A stretch of DNA of 20,823 nucleotides from an uncultured Megamonas sp. Its GTDB lineage: Bacteria; Bacillota; Negativicutes; Selenomonadales; Selenomonadaceae. Location: positions 1 through 20,823 of the forward strand of contig USIX01000018.1 of assembly GCA_900554895.1 (NCBI GenBank), written 5' to 3'. Below the pieces are notes generated by a model, which searched no databases, was not told where the DNA came from, and saw only the letters and a list, made by a program, of their open reading frames with translations. Positions 599 through 12,520 of this stretch are shown here, in pieces. Position 1 is the stretch's first letter, and each line of letters starts with the position of its first letter. The translations under genes and the position numbers were made by a program.

Positions 599-631
599 CC
601 GGTTGTCTTAGTGACAGCCGGCTTTTTTTAT
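599..631 (+). terminator. Hairpin plus T-run on the plus strand
   Basis: CCGGTTGTC (599-607) pairs with GACAGCCGG (613-621) around a 5-nt loop and is followed by a run of T on the plus strand. It looks like an intrinsic terminator for rightward transcription, although all flanking genes are leftward. It overlaps the end of the 44-residue gene next to it. In leftward RNA the same hairpin has no U-run. It may block antisense transcription into the early operon. Confidence 0.4.
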
Positions 632-742
632 ATCCAGCATAAACTTAAACCAGAATACATAAAATTCCTTAGCCGTCAGGAAGCCTTTCCTGCCCAGCAG
701 TCTTTCCACCATAGCTTTATTCAGCGTTATTCTTTCCTGCAT
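608..742 (-). CDS. Small phage early protein, 44 aa, unknown function
   Basis: ATG at 742 is preceded by AAGGTGAGAG and opens a 44-residue frame beginning MQERITLNKAMVERLLG and ending KKAGCH. The protein is basic and probably helical, with an aromatic patch (EFYVFWFKF) in the second half. Its start overlaps the end of the zinc-ribbon gene (727-921) by 16 nt, and its end is about 60 nt before the ATPase start, so it fits the early operon. I do not recognise a family. Support comes from the ribosome binding site and the operon spacing. Confidence 0.55.
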   Translation of the reverse strand: MQERITLNKAMVERLLGRKGFLTAKEFYVFWFKFMLDIKKAGCH

Positions 743-921
743 TTACTCTCACCTTTCTTTTTAACTTTCGGGTATAAACCCTTGTCATAGCACATTCTAT
801 CGTCGGCGCATACGGTAACTTTTAGACCGCAAACAAGACACAGCTTCTGTGCTTCATATTCTTTTATACGTTTGCCGCACCGCCAACACCGCAAAATCAT
901 CACCATCTTTCGATAAACCAT
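727..921 (-). CDS. Small zinc-ribbon-like phage protein
   Basis: This is a 64-residue frame with two CxxC knuckles (CWRC near residue 12 and CLVC near residue 28) and two further cysteines (VCADDRMC). The pattern predicts a zinc ribbon. Three in-frame ATG codons (921, 906, 900) are possible starts and none has a strong ribosome binding site. The later ones keep all the cysteines. The C-terminus is rich in lysine, which suits nucleic-acid or protein contacts. It lies in the leftward early operon. The biochemical role is unknown. Confidence 0.6.
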   Translation of the reverse strand: MVYRKMVMILRCWRCGKRIKEYEAQKLCLVCGLKVTVCADDRMCYDKGLYPKVKKKGESKCRKE

Positions 922-945
922 AACAAGTATTGTATGGAAACAAAA

Positions 946-1263
946 TCACATTTTCATATATCGTTCGTATTCCGAATACGGAATACGGATAAGTCTGTTG
1001 TCTCGTTTCGCCTTTATTGCACCAGTGCGGATGCGCTCATAGATGGTCGTATAACTCGTATCCACCTTTTCGGCAAATTCCTCAATCGTGAGCCATTCCT
1101 TCCGGTTCTTTAACCTGGCTTCCTGCATTTCCAACGTTTCTTTGTGCATTTGTAAAACTTTTTTAGAAATAGTAATCATTTCATCAAATTCGCGAAGAGC
1201 TGCTTCTTTCAGCCTTATAAAAGTACGTATCTTAATTTCGCATTCCAATTCCAAATCTTCCAA
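946..1263 (-). CDS. Excisionase-like helix-turn-helix protein
   Basis: The 105-residue protein starts at TTG 1263 behind AAGGTG at 6-nt spacing. The first 60 residues are predicted helix or coiled coil with heptad character (KKVLQMHKETLEMQEARLKN). The last 50 form a MerR/Xis-type winged HTH of the helix_turn_helix_17 kind: WLTIEEFAEKVDTSYTTIY, then a basic wing and a final IPYSEYERYMKM. Such domains bind DNA as excisionases or small regulators. With a tyrosine integrase at the other end of the lysogeny region it could be the directionality factor. However, it sits deep in the early operon, so a different regulatory role is also possible. Confidence 0.65.
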   Translation of the reverse strand: MEDLELECEIKIRTFIRLKEAALREFDEMITISKKVLQMHKETLEMQEARLKNRKEWLTIEEFAEKVDTSYTTIYERIRTGAIKAKRDNRLIRIPYSEYERYMKM

Positions 1264-1356
1264 TCAAATCACCTTCTTTTTCAACATTTTGTTTTCCCGC
1301 AATACAGCTTCATGCTCTGCTTGTATAGTAGCTAACCCTTTATCAAATGCACCCAT
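1264..1356 (-). CDS. Small coiled-coil ORF, 30 aa
   Basis: ATG at 1356 has a good GAGGTGA site and opens 30 residues (MGAFDKGLATIQAEHEAVLR and on to the C-terminal KKKVI). The stop at 1264 sits just before the TTG start of the HTH gene, so the two are probably translationally coupled. The sequence is a short amphipathic helix. It could be a real micropeptide or a leader that feeds ribosomes to the downstream TTG start. No family is recognised. Confidence 0.45.
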   Translation of the reverse strand: MGAFDKGLATIQAEHEAVLRENKMLKKKVI

Positions 1357-1360
1357 AAAA

Positions 1361-1765
1361 TCACCTCGGTAAAACTCGCTTGATTTCCTGATTTATCTCG
1401 TCTATCGTGTAACCAATATTACGACCCATGTCGACAACCATTGCCATATAATCCTGCTCGATTTCTTCAAGTACTTTTCCTGTTATCATTTTCTTTCCGG
1501 CAAAATATTTTCTAGCATATGCTATAGCTGAAAGTTTCGTTAATGCCTTTTGATAATGCTTGTCGTTATCTCTTTTTACTTTTATTTTGGTTTGTAAATC
1601 ATTCGCTACAATTTCAAAATCAATTCCTATAATCTTTGCCAATACCTGCGCATTATTTAAATAAACCTTAGATAATTCATTGTCATCCGTAAGTGCATAA
1701 TAAGCTGCTAAATCCAGATAAGTGTCATAATGCTGTTTAATTTCCGATGCTTTGATTAATTCCAT
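1361..1765 (-). CDS. Phage early protein, 134 aa, unknown function
   Basis: ATG at 1765 is preceded by GAGGT. The protein is mostly helical and charged, without membrane segments or cysteine motifs. It has an N-terminal helical repeat-like stretch (YDTYLDLAAYYALTDDNELS) reminiscent of a TPR-type helix pair, and ends in a basic tail. It is followed at 4-nt spacing by the 30-residue ORF, so it belongs to the early operon. I do not recognise the family. The leader upstream (1766-1918) holds a copy of the 19-bp repeat. Confidence 0.6.
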   Translation of the reverse strand: MELIKASEIKQHYDTYLDLAAYYALTDDNELSKVYLNNAQVLAKIIGIDFEIVANDLQTKIKVKRDNDKHYQKALTKLSAIAYARKYFAGKKMITGKVLEEIEQDYMAMVVDMGRNIGYTIDEINQEIKRVLPR

Positions 1766-1918
1766 ATTTTTTACCTCGCAAAAGTTTTATTTCGGTAGCA
1801 ACCCGATGAAATGCTATAAGTTTAGACACAGCGGTTTAATCAGTAACCCACCGCCAAGCGTTCGTCTGGACATGGAGAATTTACATAGTAATAACTAGGC
1901 TTTATTAAATTTTTTATG
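1766..1918. other. Noncoding gap in the early operon
   Basis: This 150-bp stretch has no credible gene. Apart from the 19-bp repeat (1882-1900) it is visibly richer in G+C than its surroundings. It contains several small self-complementary pieces, for example CGG/CCG around 1790-1805 and GCGG/CCGC around 1833-1852. It could be a structured leader of the 1361-1765 gene or a scar of module exchange. The sequence alone does not decide. Confidence 0.4.
1882..1900 (+). repeat. 19-bp direct repeat, copy 1
   Basis: TACATAGTAATAACTAGGC is identical to copies at 8623 and 9972. Its centre is an imperfect inverted repeat (TAGT-AATA-ACTA). This copy lies between two minus-strand early genes. Unlike the other copies, it has no ribosome binding site or integrase start after it. 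Confidence 0.9.
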
Positions 1919-2191
1919 TTAAAACTCGTTTAGGTATTTAATTTCTTGTTGTATAGTTTCATCTAATACATTAAAAAATTTTTTATACGTAATCTTGATA
2001 TATTCAACTTCAGTTAAAAGTGTTGGTTGTATACTTTTCTGCAATTCAAATTTAACATTTAACAAATTTTTTAATCTCTTTTGAGACAAATATTTACTTA
2101 TATCTTGTTTTGTCATTACATTCTGCCGTTCTTCAAGTTGCCGCTTGAGTTCGGCATTTTCTTTTTCCAGTTCTTCATAGGATTTGTTCAC
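1919..2191 (-). CDS. Small coiled-coil phage protein, 90 aa
   Basis: The frame starts at 2191 behind GGAGGCGAT. Residues 1-25 (SYEELEKENAELKRQLEERQ) form a textbook leucine-heptad coiled coil, and the rest is a mixed helical domain rich in lysine, isoleucine and phenylalanine. It lies 12 nt after the preceding gene in the leftward operon. The function is not recognisable. The coiled coil suggests a dimer or an adaptor. Confidence 0.6.
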   Translation of the reverse strand: MNKSYEELEKENAELKRQLEERQNVMTKQDISKYLSQKRLKNLLNVKFELQKSIQPTLLTEVEYIKITYKKFFNVLDETIQQEIKYLNEF

Positions 2192-2194
2192 TTT

Positions 2195-2220
2195 ATCGCC
2201 TCCTTAATAGCCTAAAATTT
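2195..2220. repeat. 26-bp gene-junction repeat, copy 1
   Basis: This exact 26-bp match to 2564-2589 spans the last codons (KILGY, stop) of one gene and the GGAGG ribosome binding site of the next, read on the minus strand. Confidence 0.85.
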
Positions 2221-2560
2221 TTCTAATCTGCCATTCAACTTGTCTCTTGAGTATAAAATCAGGTGTTTTACCCGTCATCAAGGCTTCAGCTATTTGTTTA
2301 GCTTTTTCATTTCCTTCTGCTATTTTCTTCTGTACGGCATTTTCTAAATCAGTTGCTATTTCAAACGGGTCTTTATCCAAGTTTCTGCCAAAATGAACAG
2401 CTTCTAAAGCGTAATGTCTAGGGAAAAACCTATCCAAATCTTGATGTAGTCGGTTTGATACTTCACACATAGCGTATAAATCTACAGCTCGTTTATATGA
2501 AGCTTCCTGTACAAATTCATACTGTTCTAACCATGAATTTTCTTCATTTGAATTTAACAT
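2204..2560 (-). CDS. Phage early protein, 118 aa, unknown function
   Basis: ATG at 2560 follows TAAGGAGGCGATTAG at good spacing. The protein is soluble and helical. It has a middle segment with aromatic and histidine residues (LDRFFPRHYALEAVHFGRN) and a C-terminal amphipathic helix ending in RKILGY. No known motif is visible. It lies between the membrane protein gene (2573-2767) and the coiled-coil gene (1919-2191) in a tight operon. Its last five residues and stop are the same as those of the upstream gene because of the 26-bp repeat. Confidence 0.6.
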   Translation of the reverse strand: MLNSNEENSWLEQYEFVQEASYKRAVDLYAMCEVSNRLHQDLDRFFPRHYALEAVHFGRNLDKDPFEIATDLENAVQKKIAEGNEKAKQIAEALMTGKTPDFILKRQVEWQIRKILGY

Positions 2561-2563
2561 CTA

Positions 2564-2589
2564 ATCGCCTCCTTAATAGCCTAAAATTT
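2564..2589. repeat. 26-bp gene-junction repeat, copy 2
   Basis: This copy is identical to 2195-2220. It covers the end of the membrane-protein gene (ILGY, stop) and the ribosome binding site of the 118-residue gene. Confidence 0.85.
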
Positions 2590-2767
2590 GTAAAATTATT
2601 AGTGCCGATATTGTTATTGCCGCAATTATTAATAGTGGTTTAAGAAGCTTTATCGCCAGCAAAATTAATGACGGTATACAACAAACTATTAATAACAAGG
2701 CGAAGAAAACTAATGGAATAAGGAATAGTGTTCCTATACCTAAGCCGATATACTGAATAATTTCCAT
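2573..2767 (-). CDS. Small phage membrane protein, two hydrophobic segments
   Basis: This 64-residue protein is almost entirely hydrophobic. Residues 5-35 (GLGIGTLFLIPLVFFALLLI and following) and 40-60 (LLIIAAITISALIILQIL) can each span the membrane, joined by a short KLLKP loop. ATG 2767 has AGGGTGA upstream at long spacing. It is the first gene after the antirepressor. Small membrane proteins in this position sometimes act in superinfection exclusion, but nothing in the sequence shows that here. Confidence 0.55.
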   Translation of the reverse strand: MEIIQYIGLGIGTLFLIPLVFFALLLIVCCIPSLILLAIKLLKPLLIIAAITISALIILQILGY

Positions 2768-2839
2768 AAATATTTAATCACCCTTACAATTTGTACTCCC
2801 AATTATCTACTTGCAGGTTCGAGGCTTTATTTCAACCTC

Positions 2840-3664
2840 TTAGCCAAATAATGCCTGCTGTTCGCGGTCGAAGTTGGCGATGAAACCGAGCTGCGTTAAT
2901 ATTTCATGGATTTTAAGTCTGCCTTTTTGCGTCCATTTCGTATACATTTTCGTTTCCTGTCTGCCATCACTTCGTGTAATTGAAATTGTTTCGGATTTTG
3001 TATAACCTTTATTCATTTTGTCGTTATACAAAATCCACTGATTATTTACCTTATGCTGGATTTTTTCATCATGCAGGATTTTATTTAATTTTTTGGCACT
3101 CAAGCCGTAATCAGCGGCAATCTGTGTCGTTGTTACCGTTCCGGTGGATTGCAGAATGATATCCACATATTCCGCCTTTGGTTTAAACTCTGCAATCTGC
3201 TGCGCCTGCATCTGATTTTCCGCAGTAAGCGTTGCAATCTGTTTTTCCTGCTCAATACGTTTTGCTCGTTCCTCTTTAAGTGCTGTGAAAACTTTTATCG
3301 CATTATCCGGGTCGGCAAGCATGATTTCGATTGTCTGCGTCGTGGCATATATACCGTGCTTGTTAATTGTCGGTAAGACTTCATCAAATACCCAGCGTTC
3401 AAACTTTTCAGCATTCGGTAATTTGCTTCTGATGATTAAGCGGTAAACATCGCCTTCTGGAATAAAATTAAGCTGTTGTTTTCCACCTTCCGTAAGGGTG
3501 TAACGTTTTGTTATACCCTTACAATGGTCATTAATAGCTTTACTTACATTCGTATATCCTAAAGCCTTTGCAACATCACTAGCACAAAATAAAATCTTAT
3601 TGCTTTCTTGAATTATTCTCATCTGACCAAATTCTGGTTTATTAAAAATTTGTAATTCGTTCAT
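2840..3664 (-). CDS. Phage antirepressor, Bro-N plus KilAC
   Basis: The 274-residue protein has a Bro-N domain at about 1-110, with CASDVAKALGYTN, the conserved PEGDVYRLIIRSKLPNAEKF and WVFDEVLPTINKHG. A coiled coil follows at about 130-165, then a KilAC DNA-binding domain at about 160-270 (TVTTTQIAADYGLSAKKLN, TQKGRLKIHEIL). Proteins of this architecture counteract the phage repressor or act as early DNA-binding regulators. The start codon overlaps the cro stop as ATGA, so translation is coupled to cro. An operator palindrome lies about 25 bp upstream, inside cro. Length and domain order are typical, and no defect is visible. Confidence 0.9.
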   Translation of the reverse strand: MNELQIFNKPEFGQMRIIQESNKILFCASDVAKALGYTNVSKAINDHCKGITKRYTLTEGGKQQLNFIPEGDVYRLIIRSKLPNAEKFERWVFDEVLPTINKHGIYATTQTIEIMLADPDNAIKVFTALKEERAKRIEQEKQIATLTAENQMQAQQIAEFKPKAEYVDIILQSTGTVTTTQIAADYGLSAKKLNKILHDEKIQHKVNNQWILYNDKMNKGYTKSETISITRSDGRQETKMYTKWTQKGRLKIHEILTQLGFIANFDREQQALFG

Positions 3665-3897
3665 TTATTTTTTCCTTTCTTACTTCTTACGCTTAAAGCG
3701 TTGTTATTGGGTAAAAAAATAAGATTACTATAAGCAATACAATACACTTTTTCTATTGCCGGTATATATTTGCTATTGGGAGTACAAAGACCTCTTTCCC
3801 ATGCACTTATAGTATCTTTACTTACACCTATTAGTTTTGCAGCTTGTTTTTGCAATAAATTTTTATTAATTCTAGCTGCTTTTATTGTTATTTTCAT
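3661..3897 (-). CDS. Cro-like HTH repressor
   Basis: The protein has about 78 residues and an HTH_3/XRE fold: KAARINKNLLQKQAAKLIGV, then the recognition helix SKDTISAWERG. I chose ATG 3897 because GAGGTGA lies 4 nt upstream; a TTG at 3900 is too close. It is the first gene of the leftward early operon and divergent from the ImmR-like repressor, the usual place for Cro. Its own promoter contains the operator between -35 and -10. The C-terminal codons overlap another operator at 3689-3701, so coding and regulatory information share the same bases. Confidence 0.88.
   Translation of the reverse strand: MKITIKAARINKNLLQKQAAKLIGVSKDTISAWERGLCTPNSKYIPAIEKVYCIAYSNLIFLPNNNALSVRSKKGKNK
3689..3701. promoter_or_regulatory. 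Operator palindrome inside cro
   Basis: ACGCTTAAAGCGT has 6-bp perfect arms around one central base and is identical to the operator at 3931. It lies within the last codons of cro, just upstream of the antirepressor start. It could act as a roadblock or a distal repressor site. Confidence 0.75.
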
Positions 3898-3922
3898 CAA
3901 ATCACCTCGCTTTGATGTTTTT

Positions 3923-3951
3923 ATTATACTACGCTTAAAGCGTCTTGTAAA
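3923..3951 (-). promoter_or_regulatory. Early promoter driving cro
   Basis: On the minus strand TTTACA (3946-3951) and TATAAT (3923-3928) are separated by exactly 17 bp. The operator at 3931-3943 fills the spacer and a second operator touches the -35 box, so repressor binding should block polymerase. Confidence 0.85.
3931..3943. promoter_or_regulatory. Operator in the cro promoter spacer
   Basis: ACGCTTAAAGCGT is a perfect palindrome with a one-base centre. It lies between the -35 and -10 boxes of the cro promoter. Confidence 0.85.
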
Positions 3952-3965
3952 TACTTAAAGCGTAT
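3951..3965. promoter_or_regulatory. Middle operator, imperfect
   Basis: ATACTTAAAGCGTAT matches the operator consensus in its right arm and is degenerate in the left. It overlaps the edge of the cro -35 box and is centred 21 bp from the first operator, about two helical turns. Confidence 0.75.
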
Positions 3966-3981
3966 TTTTTTTATAAAAATA

Positions 3982-4010
3982 TTGCTTTTAATACGTTTCA
4001 AGCGTATAAT
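3982..4010 (+). promoter_or_regulatory. Repressor promoter (rightward)
   Basis: TTGCTT (3982-3987), a 17-bp spacer and a perfect TATAAT (4005-4010) lie 26 bp before the repressor start. The third operator overlaps the spacer and -10 box, which predicts autorepression. Confidence 0.8.
3991..4007. promoter_or_regulatory. Operator over the repressor promoter
   Basis: ATACGTTTCAAGCGTAT is palindromic in its outer arms (ATACG/CGTAT) and related to the two operators to its left. It covers part of the spacer and the -10 box of the rightward promoter. Confidence 0.75.
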
Positions 4011-4035
4011 TTAGATAAAAACGGAGGATATACTC

Positions 4036-4467
4036 ATGAGTGATTTAGGTAATAAAGAAATTTTTTCTGCAAATTTAAAATATTATATGAACCAATATAA
4101 CAAAACACGCCAAGATATTTGTAATGAGTTGAATTTTAAATATACTACTTTTTCCGATTGGTATAACGGGAAAAAGTATCCTCGTATAGACAAAATAGAA
4201 ATGTTAGCAAGCTATTTCCATATTCAGAAATCTGATTTAATTGAAAGACATTCAAACGAAAAAGATTTACCGGAACTTACCGCAAAAGATGAGCGTGAAA
4301 TAGAAAGTGATTTGGAAGATATGATGCACTCCGTAGCCAGTGCTGCATGCGAGAGCGATGAAGACTTTGAAGATATAGAAGCGTTTAAAGCTGCCGTTAA
4401 GGTTGCTATGGTGCAGGCGAAACGTATTGCCAAAAAGAAATACACTCCAAAAAAATACCGTAAATAG
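4036..4467 (+). CDS. ImmR/CI-like prophage repressor
   Basis: The 143-residue protein has an N-terminal XRE-type HTH at about 8-65 (TRQDICNELNFKYTTFSDWY as turn and recognition helix). Its helical C-terminal part is acidic and then ends in a lysine-rich tail. It has no S24 peptidase domain, so it is not a LexA-type self-cleaving repressor. The next gene encodes an ImmA-type protease, the pairing known from ICEBs1 and related phages, in which ImmA cleaves ImmR to induce the element. GGAGG lies 9 nt before ATG. The promoter and operators upstream predict autorepression and repression of cro. Confidence 0.88.
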   Translation: MSDLGNKEIFSANLKYYMNQYNKTRQDICNELNFKYTTFSDWYNGKKYPRIDKIEMLASYFHIQKSDLIERHSNEKDLPELTAKDEREIESDLEDMMHSVASAACESDEDFEDIEAFKAAVKVAMVQAKRIAKKKYTPKKYRK

Positions 4468-4479
4468 AAGGTGCTGTAT

Positions 4480-4911
4480 ATGGATATAAAAGCAAAAGCC
4501 GAAAAGCTAATAAAAAAATATGGCACAAGCGACCCGTTTGAAATTGCCAAACAAGAGAATATTCACATTATTTATACAAATCTAGGCGGCAAGTTCGGTA
4601 ACTATGTAAAATACAAACGTGAAAAATTTATTCTAATAGATAACACGGCTACACCTCCTGAAATGCTTAACTTTGTCTGCGCGCATGAACTCGGACACGC
4701 TCTTTGTACAACTAAAGAAAATACACAATGGCTTAAAACCTACACTATGAGCATAAACAGCGATAAGATTGAACGTATAGCAAATACTTTCGCTGTCGAG
4801 CTCTTATTGCCGGATACATATTTGAAAGAAAACGCTGATACCAGTATCTACGATTTAGCCAGAATAAAAGGTATTCCAGCGAAGTTCATAAACTTGAAAC
4901 TGAAAAATTAA
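4480..4911 (+). CDS. ImmA/IrrE-family metalloprotease
   Basis: The protein has 143 residues from ATG 4480, chosen because AAGGTG lies 7 nt upstream; a GTG at 4471 is too close to that site. The zinc-binding motif HELGH sits in FVCAHELGHALCT, and a downstream glutamate in FAVELLLPD completes the gluzincin-like site. ImmA/IrrE (COG2856) proteases inactivate the partner repressor in response to DNA damage or a signal. It is separated from the repressor gene by 12 nt and is almost certainly cotranscribed. The length is on the short side but typical for phage ImmA. Confidence 0.9.
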   Translation: MDIKAKAEKLIKKYGTSDPFEIAKQENIHIIYTNLGGKFGNYVKYKREKFILIDNTATPPEMLNFVCAHELGHALCTTKENTQWLKTYTMSINSDKIERIANTFAVELLLPDTYLKENADTSIYDLARIKGIPAKFINLKLKN

Positions 4912-4930
4912 CTATATTAGGAGTGATAGC

Positions 4931-5066
4931 GTGGATTTTAAAAATCATTAGATAAAACACAGCATGATTTATATGTAAAGCCTAAGTCAAACGAAAAGGC
5001 AATTTGATATTCACTAGTGATGACTTTTGGAAAAGTAAGTATTATAAATCTAATAAAAATCTTTAA
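4931..5066 (+). pseudogene. Possible frameshifted small ORF remnant
   Basis: A good AGGAG site precedes GTG 4931, but the frame stops after six codons. Neighbouring frames carry peptide-like continuations, LDKTQHDLYVKPKSNEKAI and then FTSDDFWKSKYYKSNKNL ending at 5066, that would join if two frameshifts were undone. It may be the original gene after immA, broken when the ATPase module arrived. The evidence is weak. It could be plain noncoding sequence. Confidence 0.3.
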
Positions 5067-5079
5067 GGAGATTAAACTT

Positions 5080-7308
5080 ATGGAAATTACACATTTACAA
5101 GTAAATGGATCTATTTTAAAAGAAGTCGGTGAAAAAATTCCTGATGTAGTGGTGGCATTAAATGAATTAATAAAAAATGCTTATGATGCAGAAGCAACTG
5201 AAGTAGAAATTTCTCTTAACGCGAATAATAAAAAACTTATTATTCAGGATAATGGTATTGGAATGGATAGATCTACAATAGATGCTCTATTACAAGTAGG
5301 TCAAAGTAAAAAAAATTATGGTACATTGAATTCACATACAAATAGATATGTTCAAGGCTCAAAAGGATTGGGATTTTTATCAGTATGTAAATTTGGAAAA
5401 ATTGTCATTTGGGAAACTAAAGCTAAAGAAAACCCGGGCTATTGTATATCAATAGATTTTAACAAATTATATTCCGTTAAAAATATTTCTGATGAAGATA
5501 TCATTATTAATGAAAGAGATTCTATTTCTTATGGAACAAAAATAACTATTAATTTAAACGACTATGAGGCCCAAAGATTATCACAACATTTTTCCAACGA
5601 AAAAGATAGATACAAAATTTTATATTCTTTTTATGATGATAATTTTACAATAAAATTAAATATAAATGGAACAAGATATGATAATACAAATAAAATAAAA
5701 CTAGAAGAAATTTCTCCTAATTATTTGTTATACAATGTTAAATACAACACTGGAGAACGTATAATAAAATTTTACTGTAAAAACAAACTACTTTTTTCGG
5801 AAAAATTTGACTATGATTTCAAAAAATATGAAACAAAAATAAATATTAATCTCAATATTTATCAATTTAATTTATCATCTCCTACGGGAAATAAAAAATC
5901 AATTCCAAAATTATTTTATAATGATATTGATAATCTCACACCTTTAATTTACTTTTATAATAATTTCTTTAAAAACTATCAATTATTCAATCCAGAAATA
6001 TTATCGAATACACAAACAGCGTTAGTTTTACGACAAATTATTGGATTTATTAACATAATACCTGATCCTAAATTTATTGATTTTAACTCAGATAGAACTA
6101 ATTTACTTGACAACGAATATACTCAAATATTAACTAATTTTTTATTAGAAATTAATAAACGTATTCAAGCAAAAGGTAGTAAATTTAAAAAAGAACATTT
6201 AAATATCTTAAATTCAAAAAACAATTTGACAATATTTGACAAACAAAAAGTAACAAATAATACCATAGATGCTAATAAATTTAAAATAAATACTACAGAA
6301 GATTTTCGACAATTTATTTCAGATAATATAAAAATAAAAAATCTTTTTGATATAAAGTATGATGAAAATGTTGTATCTTATAGTCTTTTTAAATATTGTA
6401 CTACTTTAAATGTTGTAGGTTCTATTCAATTAAAAAAATCAGAAACAGAATCGGCTTCTGCAAAGGATAGTTCTAAAAATCCAGGATCAGAATCGGCTTC
6501 TCCAAAAGATAGTTCCAAAAAATTATATAATCCAGCTGAAATCATTTTAACTAAAAAAGAAAATATTACAATTAAAATTCCTTCGGAACAAATTGATTTA
6601 TTAAATTATATATATAAAGCTACTAATAGTATAGGTGAAAAAATCGATAAAAAAGATATACAAATATTTGTCAATGATAACCCCATATCCACAAATATTT
6701 TGCCTTCTATTACAGAAGAATGTAGAAAAAAAATCCAATTTGTTTATAATGACCCAAATACATCTAAAGCTGTATCTACCATGTATATAGACTTTGTATT
6801 AGCAACAAAAAAGTTAAGGACAAAATCATCACAAACATCTACAATTTTACTACCAACGAATAAAACATATACATTACAACATTTTCCAGTTGTGACAAAA
6901 TTAATTGAACAAATTAATTCATTACCTAGAGTTAAGTATCAAGAAATTATTGCTTGTTCTTTGCGTGCTATTTTTGATATAGGACTTGAAGAAATCAAAC
7001 AATCAAATAAACTAGCTTTTTCTGAAAATAACTTTGTAAACAATGTTTATGCAGTATTTGATACTGTTATCAATAGAGAACCTAAAAAATATTTTTCTAC
7101 AATAGCAGAACAGACAGGTATGAGTTTTAATACCATAAAAAATACAGTTGATTTTTCTTCATTGAGAGAAACACTAAAAAAAGCCCATGTGGGTGCTCAT
7201 CGTTCAACATCTTACTTGACTGATGATGATATAATAAAATTAGGTATATTAGCTGGTATTTATATCGTTTTTATTCAGGAGTTATTGTATAATCCTGATA
7301 TTAAATAA
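5080..7308 (+). CDS. GHKL/MORC-like ATPase with candidate C-terminal HEPN domain
   Basis: The protein has 742 residues from ATG 5080, which has AAGGAG 9 nt upstream; an in-frame ATG at 5017 has no such site. Residues 1-200 are a Bergerat-fold ATPase: N box ELIKNAYDAEA (Glu29, Asn33, Asp36), G1 box DNGIGM (57-62) and G2 box GSKGLG (93-98). An S5-like transducer segment follows (IGFINIIPDP, FNSDRTNLLDNE). It lacks the dimerisation and histidine-phosphotransfer segments of a kinase and is closer to the MutL/Hsp90/MORC type. A charged linker with a duplicated 14-residue unit precedes a beta-rich region and then a helical C-terminus. There Arg696 and His703 form an R-x6-H motif resembling HEPN RNases (inference). 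The DNA methyltransferase gene follows after 15 nt. The coding sequence is strikingly AT-rich, suggesting transfer. Confidence 0.85.
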   Translation: MEITHLQVNGSILKEVGEKIPDVVVALNELIKNAYDAEATEVEISLNANNKKLIIQDNGIGMDRSTIDALLQVGQSKKNYGTLNSHTNRYVQGSKGLGFLSVCKFGKIVIWETKAKENPGYCISIDFNKLYSVKNISDEDIIINERDSISYGTKITINLNDYEAQRLSQHFSNEKDRYKILYSFYDDNFTIKLNINGTRYDNTNKIKLEEISPNYLLYNVKYNTGERIIKFYCKNKLLFSEKFDYDFKKYETKININLNIYQFNLSSPTGNKKSIPKLFYNDIDNLTPLIYFYNNFFKNYQLFNPEILSNTQTALVLRQIIGFINIIPDPKFIDFNSDRTNLLDNEYTQILTNFLLEINKRIQAKGSKFKKEHLNILNSKNNLTIFDKQKVTNNTIDANKFKINTTEDFRQFISDNIKIKNLFDIKYDENVVSYSLFKYCTTLNVVGSIQLKKSETESASAKDSSKNPGSESASPKDSSKKLYNPAEIILTKKENITIKIPSEQIDLLNYIYKATNSIGEKIDKKDIQIFVNDNPISTNILPSITEECRKKIQFVYNDPNTSKAVSTMYIDFVLATKKLRTKSSQTSTILLPTNKTYTLQHFPVVTKLIEQINSLPRVKYQEIIACSLRAIFDIGLEEIKQSNKLAFSENNFVNNVYAVFDTVINREPKKYFSTIAEQTGMSFNTIKNTVDFSSLRETLKKAHVGAHRSTSYLTDDDIIKLGILAGIYIVFIQELLYNPDIK
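6446..6529 (+). repeat. 42-bp tandem duplication in the ATPase linker
   Basis: Two head-to-tail 42-bp units (6446-6487 and 6488-6529) encode ESASAKDSSKNPGS and ESASPKDSSKKLYN. The frame is kept, so this is a flexible low-complexity linker between the S5-like part and the beta-rich part of the ATPase. Confidence 0.8.
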
Positions 7309-7323
7309 AAGGAATGAGGATTA

Positions 7324-8568
7324 ATGTTATCGGATATTACAGATAAGGATATAGAGTTTAAAGACTATAAAAAGCAATCGGATATACACGGAACAGCACT
7401 TTATCCAGCTGTTATGATTGCTCCAATACAAAAAAAAATACTTGAGGAACTATTATCTGAAGATAATACCATTCATACTATTTTTGATCCCTTTCATGGT
7501 TCGGGTACTGCTTTATACGAAGCAAGTGTTCTATCTGATAATATTATGGTTTTTGGATGCGACATTAATCCATTAGCTAACTTATTTACAAAAGTAAAAT
7601 TAGAAGGTATTGATTTTCATTCTATCCATAAAAATATTGATTCTTTAAAAAGTATCATTAATAATCCTCCACCTATAATAGAAAATCTTTATTTTCCTAA
7701 AATAGATAAATGGTTTAAGCCAGATATTATAAGTGCCTTATCATTATTAAAAATGGCCATTAATAATATAAATTGTAAAAAAAATCGACTTTATTTTTGG
7801 TATATGTTGTGTGATATTATTAGAAAGTATAGCAATACACGTAGTTCTACTTACAAATTGCATATGCGCAGTCAAGAAAAGATAAATACTTTGCCTTCTG
7901 GAGAGCATTTAATAGAAGATTATATTTTACGTATTGAAAAAAATATCAACAAATTTAAATATCATACTAAAAAATATAAACTTTATAAACAAGATATTTT
8001 ATCCAAAATAAAAGAGTTTAATCCAAATGAATTTGATATTTCTATTACATCTCCTCCTTATGGCGATAATGCAACAACTGTTCCTTATGGTCAATTTTCA
8101 ATGTTAGCATTGTATATTATTGATAGAAGAGATTTAGAATTAGAAGGATGGGAATTAGAGAACTATTCTATTATTGACAATTATAGTTTAGGTGGCAAAA
8201 AAACTAAAACAAGTCTTTCAGATTTCGAAAGTTCACTATTACAACCATATTTATCAAAAATCAAAGAAAGCAAACATAAAAAGGTTGTTAATTTTTTTAA
8301 AGATTATTTTACCTTTCTTAAAGAATTAGTTAGAGTAACAGATAAATATATCGTTATTACTTTAGGACATCGAACTGTAGATAGAGTAAAAATAGACTTA
8401 ACACAAATAACGCAGGATTACTTAGAACAGTATCATTTTAACAATATTTTAACTAGAAAACGTAATCTTTCAAAAAAACGTATACCTAAAATTACTTCCC
8501 TGGTTAATAATCACCCTGTATCTTCAATGAATAAAGAATATATTAGTATTTTTCAATATCAACAGTAA
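7324..8568 (+). CDS. DNA methyltransferase (N4-cytosine/N6-adenine type, SPPY)
   Basis: The 414-residue protein starts at ATG 7324, after AAAGGAATGAGG and 15 nt behind the ATPase gene. The AdoMet-binding motif I is DPFHGSGT (55-62), followed by GCDINPLA (78-85). The catalytic motif IV is SPPY (243-246) in TSPPYGDNATTVPYGQFS. The order I then IV, with about 180 residues between, puts the target-recognition region in the middle. SPPY is common in N4-cytosine enzymes, but some N6-adenine enzymes share it. Tight coupling to the ATPase suggests the pair works together as a modification-linked defence module. No restriction endonuclease gene is adjacent. The target sequence cannot be read from the protein. 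Confidence 0.88.
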   Translation: MLSDITDKDIEFKDYKKQSDIHGTALYPAVMIAPIQKKILEELLSEDNTIHTIFDPFHGSGTALYEASVLSDNIMVFGCDINPLANLFTKVKLEGIDFHSIHKNIDSLKSIINNPPPIIENLYFPKIDKWFKPDIISALSLLKMAINNINCKKNRLYFWYMLCDIIRKYSNTRSSTYKLHMRSQEKINTLPSGEHLIEDYILRIEKNINKFKYHTKKYKLYKQDILSKIKEFNPNEFDISITSPPYGDNATTVPYGQFSMLALYIIDRRDLELEGWELENYSIIDNYSLGGKKTKTSLSDFESSLLQPYLSKIKESKHKKVVNFFKDYFTFLKELVRVTDKYIVITLGHRTVDRVKIDLTQITQDYLEQYHFNNILTRKRNLSKKRIPKITSLVNNHPVSSMNKEYISIFQYQQ

Positions 8569-8575
8569 ACATTTC

Positions 8576-8609
8576 AGCTTCATGTTTCGATTGACATGGA
8601 GCTTTTTTT
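8576..8609 (+). terminator. Terminator after the ATPase-methyltransferase module
   Basis: AGCTTCATGT and ACATGGAGCT form a 10-bp stem with one G-U pair, followed by seven T residues. It starts 8 bp after the methyltransferase stop codon and should end the repressor-immA-ATPase-methyltransferase transcript. Confidence 0.85.
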
Positions 8610-8622
8610 CTTTCATACTGAA

Positions 8623-8641
8623 TACATAGTAATAACTAGGC
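8623..8641 (+). repeat. 19-bp direct repeat, copy 2
   Basis: This copy is identical to those at 1882 and 9972. It lies 19 bp upstream of ATG 8661, which opens an integrase-like start that is cut off after 12 codons. Confidence 0.92.
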
Positions 8642-8660
8642 ATTTGGAAAGGAATATAAA

Positions 8661-8699
8661 ATGCCTACAATTCATGAACGTATAACAAAAAAGGACTAG
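8661..8699 (+). pseudogene. Integrase start remnant (12 codons)
   Basis: ATG 8661 is preceded by GGAAAGGAAT and encodes MPTIHERITKKD, then stop. This matches the way many phage tyrosine integrases begin (M-x-T-I-x-E-R-x-x-K). The frame is truncated where the YoeB terminator begins. Together with the 19-bp repeat upstream, which also precedes the intact integrase, this looks like the 5' stump of an older integrase gene. The peptide is too short for certainty. Confidence 0.5.
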
Positions 8700-8715
8700 A
8701 AAAAATCTAGTCCTT
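8691..8715 (-). terminator. Terminator of the yefM-yoeB operon
   Basis: AAGGACTAG (8691-8699) pairs with CTAGTCCTT (8707-8715). In leftward RNA the hairpin is followed by a run of U. It overlaps the yoeB stop codon by two bases. Confidence 0.8.
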
Positions 8716-8980
8716 AAAGTCTTTCATAATGCGACCATAAGCTGATTATTTTTATAGTTTGTTCTTCCTCATAAACCTGATATACCAAACGGTGCTGAAG
8801 GTTTATTCTTCTTGAGTAGATGCCGGCTAAGCTTCCGACCAATTTTTCATATCTGGGCGGCATCTTATACGGGTCTTGAGCTATCAGGTCAATCAAAGCC
8901 TTAGCTTTTTTATCAAGATGAACTGCTTTCAGTTTCGGAATATCTTTAACGGCTGTTTTCGTATAAACGATTTTATACAA
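8714..8980 (-). CDS. yoeB: YoeB/Txe-family mRNA interferase toxin
   Basis: The 88-residue protein matches the RelE-superfamily YoeB pattern: PPRYEKLVGSLAGIYSRRIN, then QHRLVYQVYEEE and the C-terminal SLWSHYERL. The conserved Glu, Arg and His/Tyr near the end are the residues YoeB uses for ribosome-dependent mRNA cleavage. The start is TTG 8980, directly after the antitoxin stop, with GAGGT upstream. A weak start coupled to the antitoxin would keep the toxin level below the antitoxin level. The length is complete and no inactivating change is visible, so the toxin is probably functional. Confidence 0.92.
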   Translation of the reverse strand: MYKIVYTKTAVKDIPKLKAVHLDKKAKALIDLIAQDPYKMPPRYEKLVGSLAGIYSRRINLQHRLVYQVYEEEQTIKIISLWSHYERL

Positions 8981-9229
8981 TTACCATTCAACCTCGCTTT
9001 CCGGCACGCAATTATCAAGCGGAGTGTTTCTTCCGTCTATAATTTTATCTTTCATTTCCGGATTGGATAGAATGGACAATGTTTCAATTAAACCTCTGTA
9101 TTCATCTTCGCTCAATACGACGGCATTGCCGAATTTTGTGGTAATATTCAATAAATCGTTATACTTAATAGTGTTTTCCAACATCTCAAAAATATTCTGT
9201 CTAAAATTTGTAATATTTGTTGTTGTCAT
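8981..9229 (-). CDS. yefM: YefM/Phd-family antitoxin
   Basis: The antitoxin has 82 residues from ATG 9229, which has GAGAGGTG upstream; a GTG at 9238 lies within that site. The N-terminal half (TNFRQNIFEMLENTIKYNDL, then NAVVLSEDEYRGLIETL) is the Phd/YefM DNA-binding and dimerisation fold. The acidic, proline-containing C-terminus is the disordered toxin-wrapping tail. It is the first gene of the operon, with two TGTACA operator boxes in its promoter. It neutralises YoeB and represses its own transcription. The pair sits in the cargo segment next to the phage integrase, where such modules commonly stabilise elements. Confidence 0.9.
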   Translation of the reverse strand: MTTTNITNFRQNIFEMLENTIKYNDLLNITTKFGNAVVLSEDEYRGLIETLSILSNPEMKDKIIDGRNTPLDNCVPESEVEW

Positions 9230-9244
9230 TGCAATCACCTCTCA

Positions 9245-9279
9245 TGTACAGTATAATGTACATATATAAATAAAGTCAA
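9245..9279 (-). promoter_or_regulatory. yefM promoter with two TGTACA operator boxes
   Basis: On the minus strand TTGACT (9274-9279), a 17-bp spacer and TTATAC (9251-9256) form the promoter. TGTACA occurs at 9257-9262 and 9245-9250, centred 12 bp apart and flanking the -10 box. TGTACA pairs are the known recognition core of YefM-YoeB autoregulation. Confidence 0.85.
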
Positions 9280-9292
9280 TGAAAAACAAGAA

Positions 9293-9314
9293 AGCACCGG
9301 CATTTACCGGTGCT
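9293..9314 (-). terminator. Terminator after hicB
   Basis: AGCACCGG and CCGGTGCT form an 8-bp stem. In leftward RNA it is followed by a U-rich stretch. It lies just after the hicB stop and separates it from the yefM promoter. Confidence 0.75.
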
Positions 9315-9318
9315 AATC

Positions 9319-9696
9319 TTAAATAGTTTTTGCAATTAATGCTTCCTGCAATACTTTAGAAAAATTTATGCCTTTATCCAGTGCTCTTTGATTGAGCCAT
9401 GCAGGAATGGTGAGAGTTTTCTTGACGGATTTAGTGTTTTTCGCTAAATCAATATCAGATTTTATCAGTGTAGCGAATGTATTCTTTTCAAGGTGCATAT
9501 CTTTGATGTCAGTGGCTTTCGGCGGTTTAATGCCGTCTTCCAGTAATCCTAAAACAAACAGCTCCATCGCTTCCGCTGCTCCCGTCAGTACTTCCGATAT
9601 ATCATCGCCGAATGTTGTACATCCTTCTAAATCTGGAAACTCAGCCCAAATACCGTCGGTATCTTCATGGATAATTGCCGGATAAATAAAAATCAT
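9319..9696 (-). CDS. hicB: HicB-family antitoxin
   Basis: The 125-residue protein begins with the HicB partial RNase H-like fold (FIYPAIIHEDTDGIWAEFPD, then LEGCTTFGDD and EAMELFVLGLLEDG). It ends with a DNA-binding segment (KKTLTIPAWLNQRALDKGIN) of ribbon-helix-helix character. HicB neutralises the HicA mRNA interferase and represses the operon. ATG 9696 has GGAGGG upstream. The hicA gene directly upstream is frameshifted, so this antitoxin appears to have lost its toxin. It could still act as an antidote to HicA from another element or as a DNA-binding regulator. Confidence 0.9.
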   Translation of the reverse strand: MIFIYPAIIHEDTDGIWAEFPDLEGCTTFGDDISEVLTGAAEAMELFVLGLLEDGIKPPKATDIKDMHLEKNTFATLIKSDIDLAKNTKSVKKTLTIPAWLNQRALDKGINFSKVLQEALIAKTI

Positions 9697-9739
9697 GATT
9701 ATCCCTCCGATTTCAATTTATAGTGAGGCAGGAAGGGCA

Positions 9740-9914
9740 TTATTTCAGCCCTGTCCTTTTAAGGATTGCATTGAGCAGTCCTATAGGTACATCCTTACCG
9801 TGTACAGCAATGACTTCTACCTTATCATCTTTTATCAGACGATGGTGGCTGCTTCTTAAAAACGTCTTGCCAGCCGTTTTTAAGAAGCAGCTTCAATAAG
9901 TCTTTGTCTCGCAT
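9740..9914 (-). pseudogene. hicA: hicA toxin gene, frameshifted
   Basis: ATG 9914 (GAGGAGG upstream) encodes MRDKDLLKLLLKNGWQDV, the normal HicA start, and then runs into a premature stop at 9825. A shifted frame continues with SHHRLIKDDKVEVIAVHGKD and PIGLLNAILKRTGLK, ending at 9740. That is the rest of HicA with its catalytic-site histidine. The break lies at the second arm of a perfect 17-bp inverted repeat whose first arm encodes the KLLLKNG helix. Unless ribosomal frameshifting rescues it, no active HicA is made. Confidence 0.82.
9848..9891. repeat. Perfect 17-bp inverted repeat within hicA
   Basis: GCTGCTTCTTAAAAACG (9848-9864) and CGTTTTTAAGAAGCAGC (9875-9891) are exact reverse complements around a 10-nt loop. 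The repeat coincides with the hicA frameshift. It has no T-run and is unlikely to be a terminator. Confidence 0.92.
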
Positions 9915-9940
9915 AATATCAGTACCTCCTCACATTCATA

Positions 9941-9969
9941 ATTATAATACGTGTATACGTATATGTCAA
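9941..9969 (-). promoter_or_regulatory. Consensus promoter of the hicAB operon
   Basis: On the minus strand TTGACA (9964-9969), exactly 17 bp and TATAAT (9941-9946) match the sigma-A consensus perfectly. The spacer contains the near-palindrome ATACGTGTATACGTAT, a likely HicB operator. Confidence 0.85.
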
Positions 9970-9971
9970 CC

Positions 9972-9990
9972 TACATAGTAATAACTAGGC
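9972..9990 (+). repeat. 19-bp direct repeat, copy 3
   Basis: This copy is identical to those at 1882 and 8623. It ends 20 bp upstream of the intact integrase start, a spacing nearly the same as for copy 2 and the truncated integrase start. Confidence 0.92.
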
Positions 9991-10010
9991 ATAATAAAAG
10001 GAGAATTATT

Positions 10011-11189
10011 ATGGCTAGAATATATAAGAAAAACAATTCATACTACTTTTCATTTGAAGCTGGCCGCGATGAACGGACCGGCAAACGCCAGCGCATCGTC
10101 CGCGGCGGTTTTCGCACAAAAAAAGAAGCCCAGCAGGCAAGTGCTGAGCTTGAAGTAAAATTTAATACTGGCAAAGTAATAGCCAAACCGAGCGATATCA
10201 CGCTGCACGAATTCATGTGGGAGCATTGGCTACCTTACCATGGATACCAGGTAAAGCCGTCCAGTATCCACGCCATTAAAGTGCATTTAAGACGTATTGA
10301 TAAATATTTTAATAATATAAAACTAAAAGATATAACAACGCTGCAATGCAATCGTTTTGCACTTCACATGTTGGAACAAATGCAGCTAAGCCGCAATGTC
10401 GTCTCTTCGACTATAGCATATTTAAAGATAATATTCAAATATGCTATATATGTAGAAAATATACTGATTAATAATCCTGTTGATTATGTAGTAATTCCCA
10501 AGTATTATAACCAGCAAAAAGAAAATGCGCTGCGCCAAAAGAAAAAACCGCTTTATCTGGAAAAAGAAACATTGAAAAAATTTTTAACCGAAGCTAAAAA
10601 GGATTTTAAAAACTTTCCGTTTTACATGGCCACCGTATTAATGACGTACACAGGAATGAGAATAGGTGAAGTATTAGCTTTACAATGGGATGATATAGAC
10701 TTGAAAAACAAAGTAATTCACGTGAAAAACGGTTATTTTTATTTAAGCAATAACCAATTCATTATACAGACACCGAAAACAAAAACCAGTATGCGAGACA
10801 TAACTATTCACGATTTACTGATTAAAGAAATAACAGCGTACCGGAAACAATTCATTGCCTTTAAAATGCGTTCATTTTCATGGTTTGAATGTGATTATGA
10901 TTTTGTTTTAACTTCGGTAAGATTTCCCGGAAGACCATTTTTAGAACAAAGTCTGAAGAGCTGGATGCATACTATCGGTAAACGAATAGATATAGATTAT
11001 ATTCATCCGCATATATTCCGCCATACTCATGTATCACTACTCGCAGAAATCGGCGTACCGCTCGAAGTGATTCAGGAAAGGCTTGGCCATGCCAACGACA
11101 CGACAACACGACAAATCTATCTGCATATAACGAAGAATACAAAAAATGAAGCCGCGGTCCGCTTCGATAAATTGATGTCTAAAATCTAA
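10011..11189 (+). CDS. int: Phage tyrosine integrase (first)
   Basis: The protein has 392 residues from ATG 10011, preceded by AAAAGGAG; an in-frame ATG at 9951 would run through the repeat without a site. The N-terminal arm-binding domain (ARIYKKNNSYYFSFEAGRDE) and the SAM-like core-binding domain (about 60-165) precede the catalytic domain. There, Arg lies in YTGMRIGEVLALQWDDI, the H-x-x-R in HIFRHTHVSLL and the nucleophile Tyr in ATTRQIYLHI-like context (TTTRQIYLHIT). It catalyses integration and, with a directionality factor, excision. It is transcribed in the same direction as the repressor and sits at the end of the element, typical of Firmicute temperate phages. Confidence 0.93.
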   Translation: MARIYKKNNSYYFSFEAGRDERTGKRQRIVRGGFRTKKEAQQASAELEVKFNTGKVIAKPSDITLHEFMWEHWLPYHGYQVKPSSIHAIKVHLRRIDKYFNNIKLKDITTLQCNRFALHMLEQMQLSRNVVSSTIAYLKIIFKYAIYVENILINNPVDYVVIPKYYNQQKENALRQKKKPLYLEKETLKKFLTEAKKDFKNFPFYMATVLMTYTGMRIGEVLALQWDDIDLKNKVIHVKNGYFYLSNNQFIIQTPKTKTSMRDITIHDLLIKEITAYRKQFIAFKMRSFSWFECDYDFVLTSVRFPGRPFLEQSLKSWMHTIGKRIDIDYIHPHIFRHTHVSLLAEIGVPLEVIQERLGHANDTTTRQIYLHITKNTKNEAAVRFDKLMSKI

Positions 11190-11337
11190 ATGGCACCCAA
11201 AAGGCACCCATAACGAAAATAGCTTAATAAAAATCCTTGATTTTCTTATAATCTAAGTGTTTTATTGATACGCTATAAAAATCAATACCTTTTTGACAAT
11301 TATATTAAAAGAAAGTTTTTTCTGATAAATATATGGG
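11190..11337. other. Noncoding region after integrase, probable attachment-site region
   Basis: The region between the integrase stop and the LacI-gene terminator has no ORF. It opens with GGCACCCA twice (11192-11199 and 11203-11210), the kind of short direct repeat found as integrase arm-binding sites next to attP in many low-GC elements. The rest is AT-rich. The chromosome-prophage boundary probably lies here, but no second copy of a core is visible in the window. Confidence 0.45.
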
Positions 11338-11371
11338 ATAAAAAAGGGAATTTATTCTTATAAATTCCCTT
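11338..11371 (-). terminator. Terminator of the lacI-type gene
   Basis: AAGGGAATTTAT (11344-11355) and ATAAATTCCCTT (11360-11371) form a perfect 12-bp stem with a 4-nt loop. In leftward RNA it is followed by a U-run. It touches the stop codon of the regulator gene. Confidence 0.88.
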
Positions 11372-12345
11372 CAGCATGTATCACCCTTACGCAAAGTAAC
11401 CGGCAGAATTTTTTCCGTATCTACTTTTTTCCCTTGTATTAAGGCAACAATCATATTTGCCGTCTCTGTTGCCAACAAAGTTATCGGCTGCACAATCGAA
11501 GTTATATTATAAAAACCGCTCTCTGTTATGAATGTACCGTCATATGCTATGAATTTTATATCTTTTGGAATACTTAAATTCCGTTTATGCGCTTCATTCA
11601 AACAGGTATTAATTACCATATCCGCTCCAAACACACCGTCAACTTCAGGATATTTTGCAAAAACTTCTTTAACCGTTTGTCTGTAATAATCCATACCGAA
11701 CTGGTTCCAGCCCATTTCATAATTTATAACCTCAATACCGCTTTTCATCATTTCATTTTCAAAAACCGCATGGTGTAAATGCGCCGGTGTAGAAACGCTT
11801 TTTGCTCCCATTATCTGAACAGGATGTTTGCAGCCTGCCTGTATCATTGCCTGTGCCGCCAATCTGCCTCCCTGTTCATGGTCTGAACGTATAATCGGAA
11901 TTTTACTGTTGATAATGCGGTCAAAAGCTACAATCGGTTTATTAATATTATTATACAAACCGATTTCCAGTGAATGACATCCCATAATAATTCCGTCAAT
12001 CATCTGTCTTTGCAGCATATTAACCAGTTCATGCTCAGCATTTTCTCTCTCAACCGTTGAACATACCATTATTTTATAACCGTGCTTATACAATGCAACC
12101 TCTAAAGAGCCGATAAACGTTCCAAAAAACGGATGGGCTACATCAGGTACGATAACACCGATTATATTAGTACAATTATGAAATAAATTTCGTGCTAATT
12201 CATTCGGCACATAATTAAGCTTCTCTATCGCATCCAATACTTTTTTCCGCGCATTATCTGAAACATAACCTTTATTATTAAGTACTAATGATACCGTACT
12301 CGGCGCAACTTGCGCCAGTTTTGCCACATCTCTGATACTAGCCAC
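11371..12345 (-). CDS. LacI/GalR-family transcriptional regulator
   Basis: The protein has about 324 residues from GTG 12345, 8 nt behind AAGGAG; a TTG at 12348 is the alternative. The N-terminal HTH (IRDVAKLAQVAPSTVSLVLN) and hinge (NYVPNELARNL) are followed by a periplasmic-binding-type effector domain (IGVIVPDVAHPFFGTFIGSL, IMVCSTVERE, DGVFGADMVINT, SIVQPITLLA). It binds DNA as a dimer and responds to a small ligand, normally a sugar or nucleoside. No transport or catabolic gene adjoins it, so the regulon cannot be inferred. It is complete and looks like the first chromosomal gene beyond the prophage. Confidence 0.92.
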   Translation of the reverse strand: MASIRDVAKLAQVAPSTVSLVLNNKGYVSDNARKKVLDAIEKLNYVPNELARNLFHNCTNIIGVIVPDVAHPFFGTFIGSLEVALYKHGYKIMVCSTVERENAEHELVNMLQRQMIDGIIMGCHSLEIGLYNNINKPIVAFDRIINSKIPIIRSDHEQGGRLAAQAMIQAGCKHPVQIMGAKSVSTPAHLHHAVFENEMMKSGIEVINYEMGWNQFGMDYYRQTVKEVFAKYPEVDGVFGADMVINTCLNEAHKRNLSIPKDIKFIAYDGTFITESGFYNITSIVQPITLLATETANMIVALIQGKKVDTEKILPVTLRKGDTC

Positions 12346-12520
12346 CAAATCATCTCCTTAAAAATAAAATTTGTTTCACATTTAATAAAATAGTATAATA
12401 CTTTATATATTTTATCCTATATCAATAAACAATATCAACATCTGTTACATTAAATAAAAATCTTCAAAATATTGTTATAGTATAATACATCAATTATTTT
12501 ATATAAAGAAGGTAATCAAC

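Follow-up and report, generated by a model that had tools for sequence, protein, structure and literature searches.

A gene pair carried by a prophage of an uncultured Megamonas sp., in which a GHKL ATPase gene is followed by a DNA methyltransferase gene, is a conserved unit, and the C-terminal tail of its ATPase is related to PD-Lambda-5_A, a protein of the tested defense system PD-lambda-5. The pair lies on contig USIX01000018.1 (assembly GCA_900554895.1, positions 1 to 20,823), and the whole of this 20,823-nucleotide (nt) stretch is called the window. An earlier description, made from the letters and their open reading frames (ORFs) and referred to here as the sequence-only reading, had seen in the pair a self-versus-nonself module housed in a prophage. 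We consider the pair probably a compact relative of restriction-type immunity. More specifically, we suggest, with confidence that stops just short of even, that it is a compact, prophage-carried two-gene defense cassette resembling restriction-modification (R-M) but equipped with an abortive arm.

Results

Profile scans of the ATPase recovered 36 loci from species genomes and another 2 from viral contigs; these alignment-based scans succeeded where single-sequence scans of the viral and species-genome contigs had found no relative. Thirty-five loci were counted, since three loci of one Gilliamella assembly duplicate the ATPase gene of a fourth exactly and were dropped. At 33 of the 35 there is a methyltransferase of the window's family, at most 170 nt away in 28, and the case that would have undone the sequence-only reading, an ATPase found mostly alone, is thereby set aside. 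Five further pairs are more distant: genes intervene in L024, L026, and L036, both genes are decayed in L035, and 3.9 kb separates the two in L038. The methyltransferase of L011 is split into two ORFs. At the two loci without a methyltransferase, the contig either breaks off within a gene of the larger form described below (L022) or begins within the ATPase gene (L033); L036, which comes from the same assembly as L033 and was counted apart, ends inside the ATPase gene and has the methyltransferase. The ATPase gene stands first in 20 cases, the window included, and the methyltransferase gene in 13, with the two genes opposite in 1; since two gene orders exist, the link between the genes survives rearrangement. 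The pairwise distances of the two proteins also correlate (r 0.67 over 30 pairs, against 0.39 for the best of 2000 permutations), a figure from which the shared descent of the hosts was not removed and from which L011, L022, L028, L033, L035, L036, and the three copies were left out.

The dependence runs in one direction. A set of 398 genomes from a single phylum, with the seed among them, contains the methyltransferase family in 8 genomes and the ATPase in the seed only. In one of the seven others a more distantly related GHKL protein adjoins the methyltransferase (L046, E 1.5e-18), and the flanks examined at the remaining six contain no match to the ATPase profile. The pair ranges from Firmicutes to Proteobacteria. 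Phage records gave only partial ATPase matches (4 records, 18-25% of the query), and none of the 21 plasmid records matched covers 80%. The decayed copy in Leclercia adecarboxylata (L035:6614-9875) consists of a methyltransferase in pieces and an ATPase ORF without its N-terminal part. In Escherichia phage PhiR44_1 (L043) a gene annotated "ParaMORC3" has a Dcm gene as its neighbor, the two lying between genes for the portal and for replication.

The relationship of the ATPase tail to PD-Lambda-5_A emerged from the PADLOC library (2023 version), in which residues 489-722 of the ATPase match positions 358-596 of the 613 in PD-Lambda-5_A model PDLC03996 (E 8.4e-15). The sequence-only reading had noted that the separate nuclease and helicase of described systems are missing. 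The pair matches no PADLOC system completely; the tail alone matches PD-Lambda-5_A. We assembled 29 tails, that of the window and those of 28 of the 35 loci (L028, L033, and L036 were left out, as were, beforehand, L012, L016, L017, and L031), and found PDLC04001 matched by 28 and PDLC03996 by 25, both being PD-Lambda-5_A models, with a best E of 1.3e-19 and a value of 1.8e-13 for the window's own tail. At E<=0.01 these tails match ten PADLOC families, all of which are PD-Lambda-5_A except HORMA, matched by 2 tails. When profiles were compared by hhalign, the tail aligned with 34 PD-Lambda-5_A homologues over 85 columns in its first half (E 2.2e-5, probability 76), and the whole families aligned over 131 columns, all within the tail (E 4.6e-5, probability 69). 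In the latter alignment the invariant arginines coincide, R629 of the ATPase (positions 6964-6966; 108 of the 108 aligned homologues) with R403 of PD-Lambda-5_A (34/34). The ATPase alignment comprises 108 of 120 homologues listed, from 428 found. Searched in the opposite direction, a PD-Lambda-5_A tail profile matched 21 of 112 GHKL proteins at E<=1e-3, the best stretch always falling within the final 30% of the protein; no reversed control and no methyltransferase control was matched. When the tail was compared as a single sequence with a single PD-Lambda-5_A protein, the result was weak (probability 9) and fell short of the family comparison.

For comparison we fetched a PD-lambda-5 locus (L044) other than the tested E. 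coli one. Its protein A matches PDLC03998 (E 9.4e-164), and its protein B matches PD-Lambda-5_B (1e-123) and the Pfam D12 methyltransferase family. A Pfam scan of protein A returned no family; some of its homologues are named "ParB N-terminal" or "ParB/Sulfiredoxin domain" in several sources.

Other searches with the tail were less productive. The Protein Data Bank yielded nothing meaningful by sequence (best E 0.018), and a protein search with the tail of one homologue, a badly chosen query, returned only itself and a near twin. No new architecture appeared when the tail profile was run over 398 and 249 genomes, where its matches (2/398 and 1/249) were the two seed genomes and G989, the genome of L032, with the same genes. 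At E 1e-3, PDLC03996 missed the genomes of L024 and L035. Four methyltransferase-first loci from Firmicutes (L012, L016, L017, and L031) have a tail that differs from the rest: the whole-family profile aligns with them up to positions 685-693 of 703, neither tail profile matches them, PD-Lambda-5_A goes unmatched at 1e-3 in L016, and L017 gives a PDLC03996 match of E 9.9e-6. We read these tails as divergent; possibly they have been replaced and constitute a different effector.

Translation of the ATPase is assigned to the ATG at 5080, which has AAGGAG upstream, with the stop at 7308; the mechanical ORF is longer, beginning at a GTG at 5017 (763 residues). The motifs that the sequence-only reading had reported (ELIKNAYDAEA, DNGIGM, and GSKGLG) are present, and the GHKL residues E29, N33, D57, G59, G61, G93, K95, G96, G98, and T153 are each invariant in all 108 homologues. 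Pfam matches residues 25-136 with HATPase_c_3 (1.1e-18) and, over the same part, HATPase_c (3.6e-7), and matches nothing firmly beyond them; neither a TIR nor a restriction-endonuclease-fold domain was recognized by Pfam in the window ATPase. An S5-like segment had also been proposed, and an AlphaFold2 model (mean predicted local distance difference test score [pLDDT] 85.9, predicted template modeling score 0.61) agrees with it: Foldseek matched the model to TRAP1/Hsp90 (E 4.1e-14) and to Bacillus subtilis MutL (7.7e-12) over approximately 400 alignment columns, but at a root-mean-square deviation of 7-10 and a query TM score of about 0.3, values such as a flexible multidomain protein would be expected to give. 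The S5-domain residue R339, invariant in 108/108, lies within FNSDRT, which may be compared with the catalytic arginine loop of Hsp90. The borders of the S5/middle domain were set by eye on the model. The linker that follows falls below a pLDDT of 50 at residues 455-480; it is encoded by the in-frame 42-nt repeat, of which the close relatives P0002 and P0010 have additional copies, and linker length thus varies with the frame kept. H707 (7198-7200) in the tail is, like R629, invariant in 108/108.

The sequence-only reading called the ATPase MORC-like, a label that needs narrowing. The S5 motif of MORC proper (GhXhhpXXRhl, Iyer et al.) occurs in none of the 108 homologues, and the protein fits better as a paraMORC-type ATPase in the broad sense, having GHKL and S5 domains, the catalytic motifs, and a link to DNA methylases without the MORC motif.

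The methyltransferase predicted downstream was an SPPY enzyme, and so it is. Residues 4-410 match PADLOC MTase_II (PDLC03322, E 3.8e-61), and S243-P-P-Y246, D55-P56-F57, and G59-S60 are shared by all 32 aligned methyltransferases. With a full-length match and with motif I and SPPY intact, the protein can be classed, by its sequence, as type II-like.

The neighboring genes scanned were a selection, listed here without a background rate. R-M genes recur: type IIG genes at L006 and L009, a BsuBI/PstI-type fusion at L019, a type I R subunit at L013, a C5 methylase at L016, and a helicase-Eco57I protein at L025. Tn7-type transposons also seem to carry the pair, given TnsE beside it in L021 and related genes in L026 and L028; at all three loci the methyltransferase gene directly follows the tnsE-like gene. 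A larger form occurs in five places (L018:7449-11718, L024:10588-14903, L036:3614-7749, L026:3325-7524, and L022:9348-11839). It comprises a protein of approximately 830 residues with an N-terminal GHKL domain (BbrUII-like) and a C-terminal histidine-kinase-like ATPase domain, together with a protein of 547-597 residues that belongs to no family, and it lies close to the same methyltransferase and ATPase, the L022 contig ending before any methyltransferase. In L022 and L026 at least one of the two proteins is truncated or split, L026 having split ORFs. The larger form recalls kinase-like paraMORC elements (PMC8011034), and the Pfam domains of those elements have no match in L018 or L024 at E 1e-3.

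The features of the locus are collected in Table 1. Two Xre-type regulators in total stand upstream of the pair. The pair is cargo of the lysogeny region, between the repressor and ImmA genes and the integrase, and "prophage cargo slot," the phrase of the sequence-only reading, is a fair description. That reading had also noted the terminator closing the pair and the richness of both genes in A and T. The GC content is 24.3% for the ATPase gene and 26.1% for the methyltransferase gene, against 33.9% for the remaining window, and one small flanking gene (3661-3900) is likewise GC-poor (28.3%). Terminator-like sites number 4 between 4800 and 9300, with 0.8 expected, and promoter-like sites are at chance level (33 seen, 34.1 expected). 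No phage record searched showed DNA-level similarity to positions 1-12400 of the window.

Table 1. Positions in the window of the ATPase-methyltransferase pair, its parts, and the genes that border it
Feature	Position	Strand	Basis or remark
Antirepressor gene	2840-3664		Upstream of the pair
Xre-type regulator	4036-4467		Upstream border of the cargo slot, with the ImmA/IrrE gene
ImmA/IrrE-type metallopeptidase	4471-4911	+	Peptidase_M78 4.7e-19, phrog_87 9.7e-30; upstream border of the cargo slot
GHKL/S5 (paraMORC-type) ATPase with PD-Lambda-5_A-like C-terminal domain	5080-7308	+	742 residues
GHKL (Bergerat) nucleotide-binding domain	5152-5487	+	Residues 25-136; Pfam match, motif residues 108/108
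S5/middle domain and following long helix	5647-6213	+	Residues ~190-378; Foldseek, model secondary structure, R339
Low-complexity linker from 42-nt tandem repeat (2.1 copies)	6434-6521	+	TRF
Beta-rich domain	6538-6801	+	Residues 487-574; model secondary structure; start of the PDLC03996-matching stretch
C-terminal helical domain	6880-7305	+	Residues 601-742; related to PD-Lambda-5_A
Intergenic gap, 15 nt	7309-7323	+	Contains ribosome-binding-like stretch AAGGAATGAGG
SPPY-type (N6/N4 amino) DNA methyltransferase	7324-8568	+	414 residues; PADLOC MTase_II match, alignment of 32
Methyltransferase motif I	7486-7509	+	
Methyltransferase SPPY motif	8050-8061	+	
Rho-independent terminator-like hairpin, then T-run	8576-8603	+	
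Tyrosine integrase of the prophage	9951-11189	+	Phage_integrase 3.4e-28, Arm-DNA-bind_4 1.6e-12; downstream border region

Between the pair and the integrase lie genes for a Txe/YoeB-type toxin and a weakly YefM-like antitoxin (8714-9238) and a HicB-like antitoxin gene (9319-9696), after which no additional minus-strand ORF of at least 35 residues comes before the integrase. A second, mobile-looking segment occupies 16086-20425 and holds a glutathionylspermidine-synthase-like ATP-grasp gene (16086-17321), an N6/N4 methyltransferase gene (17923-18660), and a further tyrosine integrase (19289-20425) that contains a 42-nt repeat (19854-19957).

Discussion

We envision the pair working as follows. 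The methyltransferase would mark the DNA of host and prophage. The ATPase, whose fold and catalytic residues are evident, may form an Hsp90/MutL-like dimeric clamp on DNA, its ATP cycle run by the GHKL and S5 domains. Upon meeting unmarked invading DNA, it would change state and switch on the C-terminal helical domain, a putative effector, perhaps a nuclease that, like HEPN proteins, has RNA as its target. Self/non-self sensing of this kind, as the sequence-only reading had it, is plausible. That reading also allowed for an effector inside the ATPase, and it may well be there, because the tail is common to PD-Lambda-5_A: the pair and PD-lambda-5 share only this tail and some methyltransferase, which makes the tail the likely common working part. 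The two methyltransferases belong to different families, which makes it improbable that the tail serves to dock either of them. Since a tail of this kind is joined in PD-lambda-5 to another front end, and accompanied by another methyltransferase, the front end seems to be interchangeable. Extending this, we would put forward, tentatively and with more doubt than conviction, a family of compact methylation-guided immune systems in which an exchangeable nucleotide-driven clamp, GHKL in the pair and ParB/sulfiredoxin-like in PD-lambda-5, is joined to a novel kind of C-terminal effector shared by all, and in which each has its own, unrelated methyltransferase. The window's pair would found its GHKL branch, to which the larger form, with its second, kinase-like GHKL protein, would also belong.

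Several observations weigh against an abortive cassette of this design. H707 of the ATPase family and the conserved histidine of PD-Lambda-5_A, H474 (33/34), do not align, H474 standing about seven residues earlier. The fold of the tail is perhaps HEPN-like, but its conserved residues are off the HEPN pattern: an arginine at -5 to -7 of the invariant histidine is found in 4 of 108 homologues, so the Rx4-6H motif is missing. Because the histidines are unaligned, and because a parallel, Shedu, has been published, we have lowered our confidence both in the cassette and in the exchangeable front end.

The ATPase might instead trap DNA rather than kill the cell. Acting like MORC as a clamp, it would close around incoming DNA that lacks methylation and keep it from being replicated or transcribed; the tail would contribute to DNA recognition and dimerization, and a nuclease would be unnecessary. 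The fold matches are to the Hsp90 and MutL clamps, no nuclease family was recognized in the window ATPase or among the families listed for the tails, helix-turn-helix-like matches occur in 2 of 29 tails, and Caenorhabditis elegans MORC-1 is described as entrapping and condensing DNA (PMC8277788). We nevertheless regard entrapment as unlikely, for the element shared with PD-Lambda-5_A, which has a non-GHKL front end, is the tail and not the clamp, and the S5 motif of MORC itself is missing from all 108 homologues. A plain type II R-M pair, in which the ATPase polypeptide would itself be an ATP-dependent restriction endonuclease, cleaving DNA that is unmethylated, seems to us similarly improbable. 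The N-terminus is nearest to BbrUII/HgiDII among NCBIfam models (E 3.4e-21) and matches PADLOC REase_II (7.6e-11), PADLOC files the partner as MTase_II, and the GHKL-nuclease VcSduA is reported to restrict directly (PMC12137116); yet the BbrUII/HgiDII match is confined to the GHKL part, residues 25-203, and reaches 75.4 bits against a cut-off of 550, so that membership was rejected, and no nuclease family is recognized besides the REase_II matches to that same part.

It is also conceivable, though we think it very unlikely, that the pair has no part in defense and is a cassette for prophage maintenance or regulation, in which the methyltransferase shields prophage DNA from host restriction and the ATPase has a role in DNA topology or repair. 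Phages commonly carry lone methyltransferases, and toxin-antitoxin-type genes occupy the same region. Against this, the pair recurs beside R-M and tnsE-like genes, and its tail belongs to the family of a tested defense protein.

By way of a single common domain the pair is tied to a tested defense system, which narrows the search for the effector to approximately 140 residues and would make bacterial MORC/MutL-type ATPases sensors wired to a removable effector. Should the tail prove to be an RNase, its active site would be unusual; should it not, a mechanism that uses the clamp only becomes the simplest reading.

Comparison with Known Systems

PD-lambda-5, assayed in MG1655 deleted for the mrr region, changed plating or plaque size for all but one of the phages used and is described as a compacted, prophage version of R-M plus abortive infection (Vassallo et al. 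2022, PMC9519451). Like the window's pair it has two genes, one encoding a DNA methyltransferase, and a homologous tail (28/29) with an aligned invariant arginine. It differs in having a ParB/sulfiredoxin-like rather than a GHKL front end, the match being limited to residues 489-722, in having a methyltransferase of the D12 class rather than the SPPY family, and in the position of its conserved histidine. PD-Lambda-5_B is absent from the 14 families matched at E<=0.1.

VcSduA, a GHKL-Shedu protein reported in 2025, offers a published parallel in logic. Its GHKL domain controls a C-terminal nuclease, both are required for defense, and Shedu as a whole is presented as one nuclease with diverse N-terminal regulators (PMC12137116), a modular arrangement like that proposed for the pair. 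VcSduA, however, is a single gene with a PD-(D/E)xK (DUF4263) nuclease and no methyltransferase, and its action is direct rather than abortive, without killing the cell.

The paraMORC ATPases of R-M operons (Iyer et al. 2008, PMC2292703) share with ours the GHKL and S5 domains, a C-terminal extension, and adjoining DNA methylases, and a minority of their neighborhoods are described as having methylases or restriction endonucleases and no helicase. The marks given there for two subgroups are not conserved in our ATPase family: ExxxH of paraMORC2 is found in 25 of 108 (residues 150-420), and HxH of paraMORC5 in 1 of 108. Ymh-HEPN tails on paraMORCs in R-M neighborhoods, for which an action like that of PrrC/RloC was proposed (Anantharaman et al. 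2013, PMC3710099), give the same predicted layout, in which R-M genes adjoin a GHKL ATPase that carries its effector at the C-terminus. They differ in that Ymh (PF09509) is not among the 25/34 Pfam families listed for the 29 tails (E<=10), and in the HEPN motif discussed above. With the BbrUII/HgiDII restriction enzymes (NCBIfam NF050001) the pair shares a GHKL N-terminus in an R-M protein.

Judged by sequence, then, the pair falls outside PD-lambda-5, outside MORC proper, and outside every named PADLOC 2023 system, and our literature searches found no paper describing it or its kinship with PD-lambda-5. Systems of related kinds are already known, and GHKL ATPases in R-M operons, paraMORC-HEPN fusions, and GHKL-Shedu are close precedents; what the window's pair adds to them is an ATPase tail that is related to PD-Lambda-5_A.

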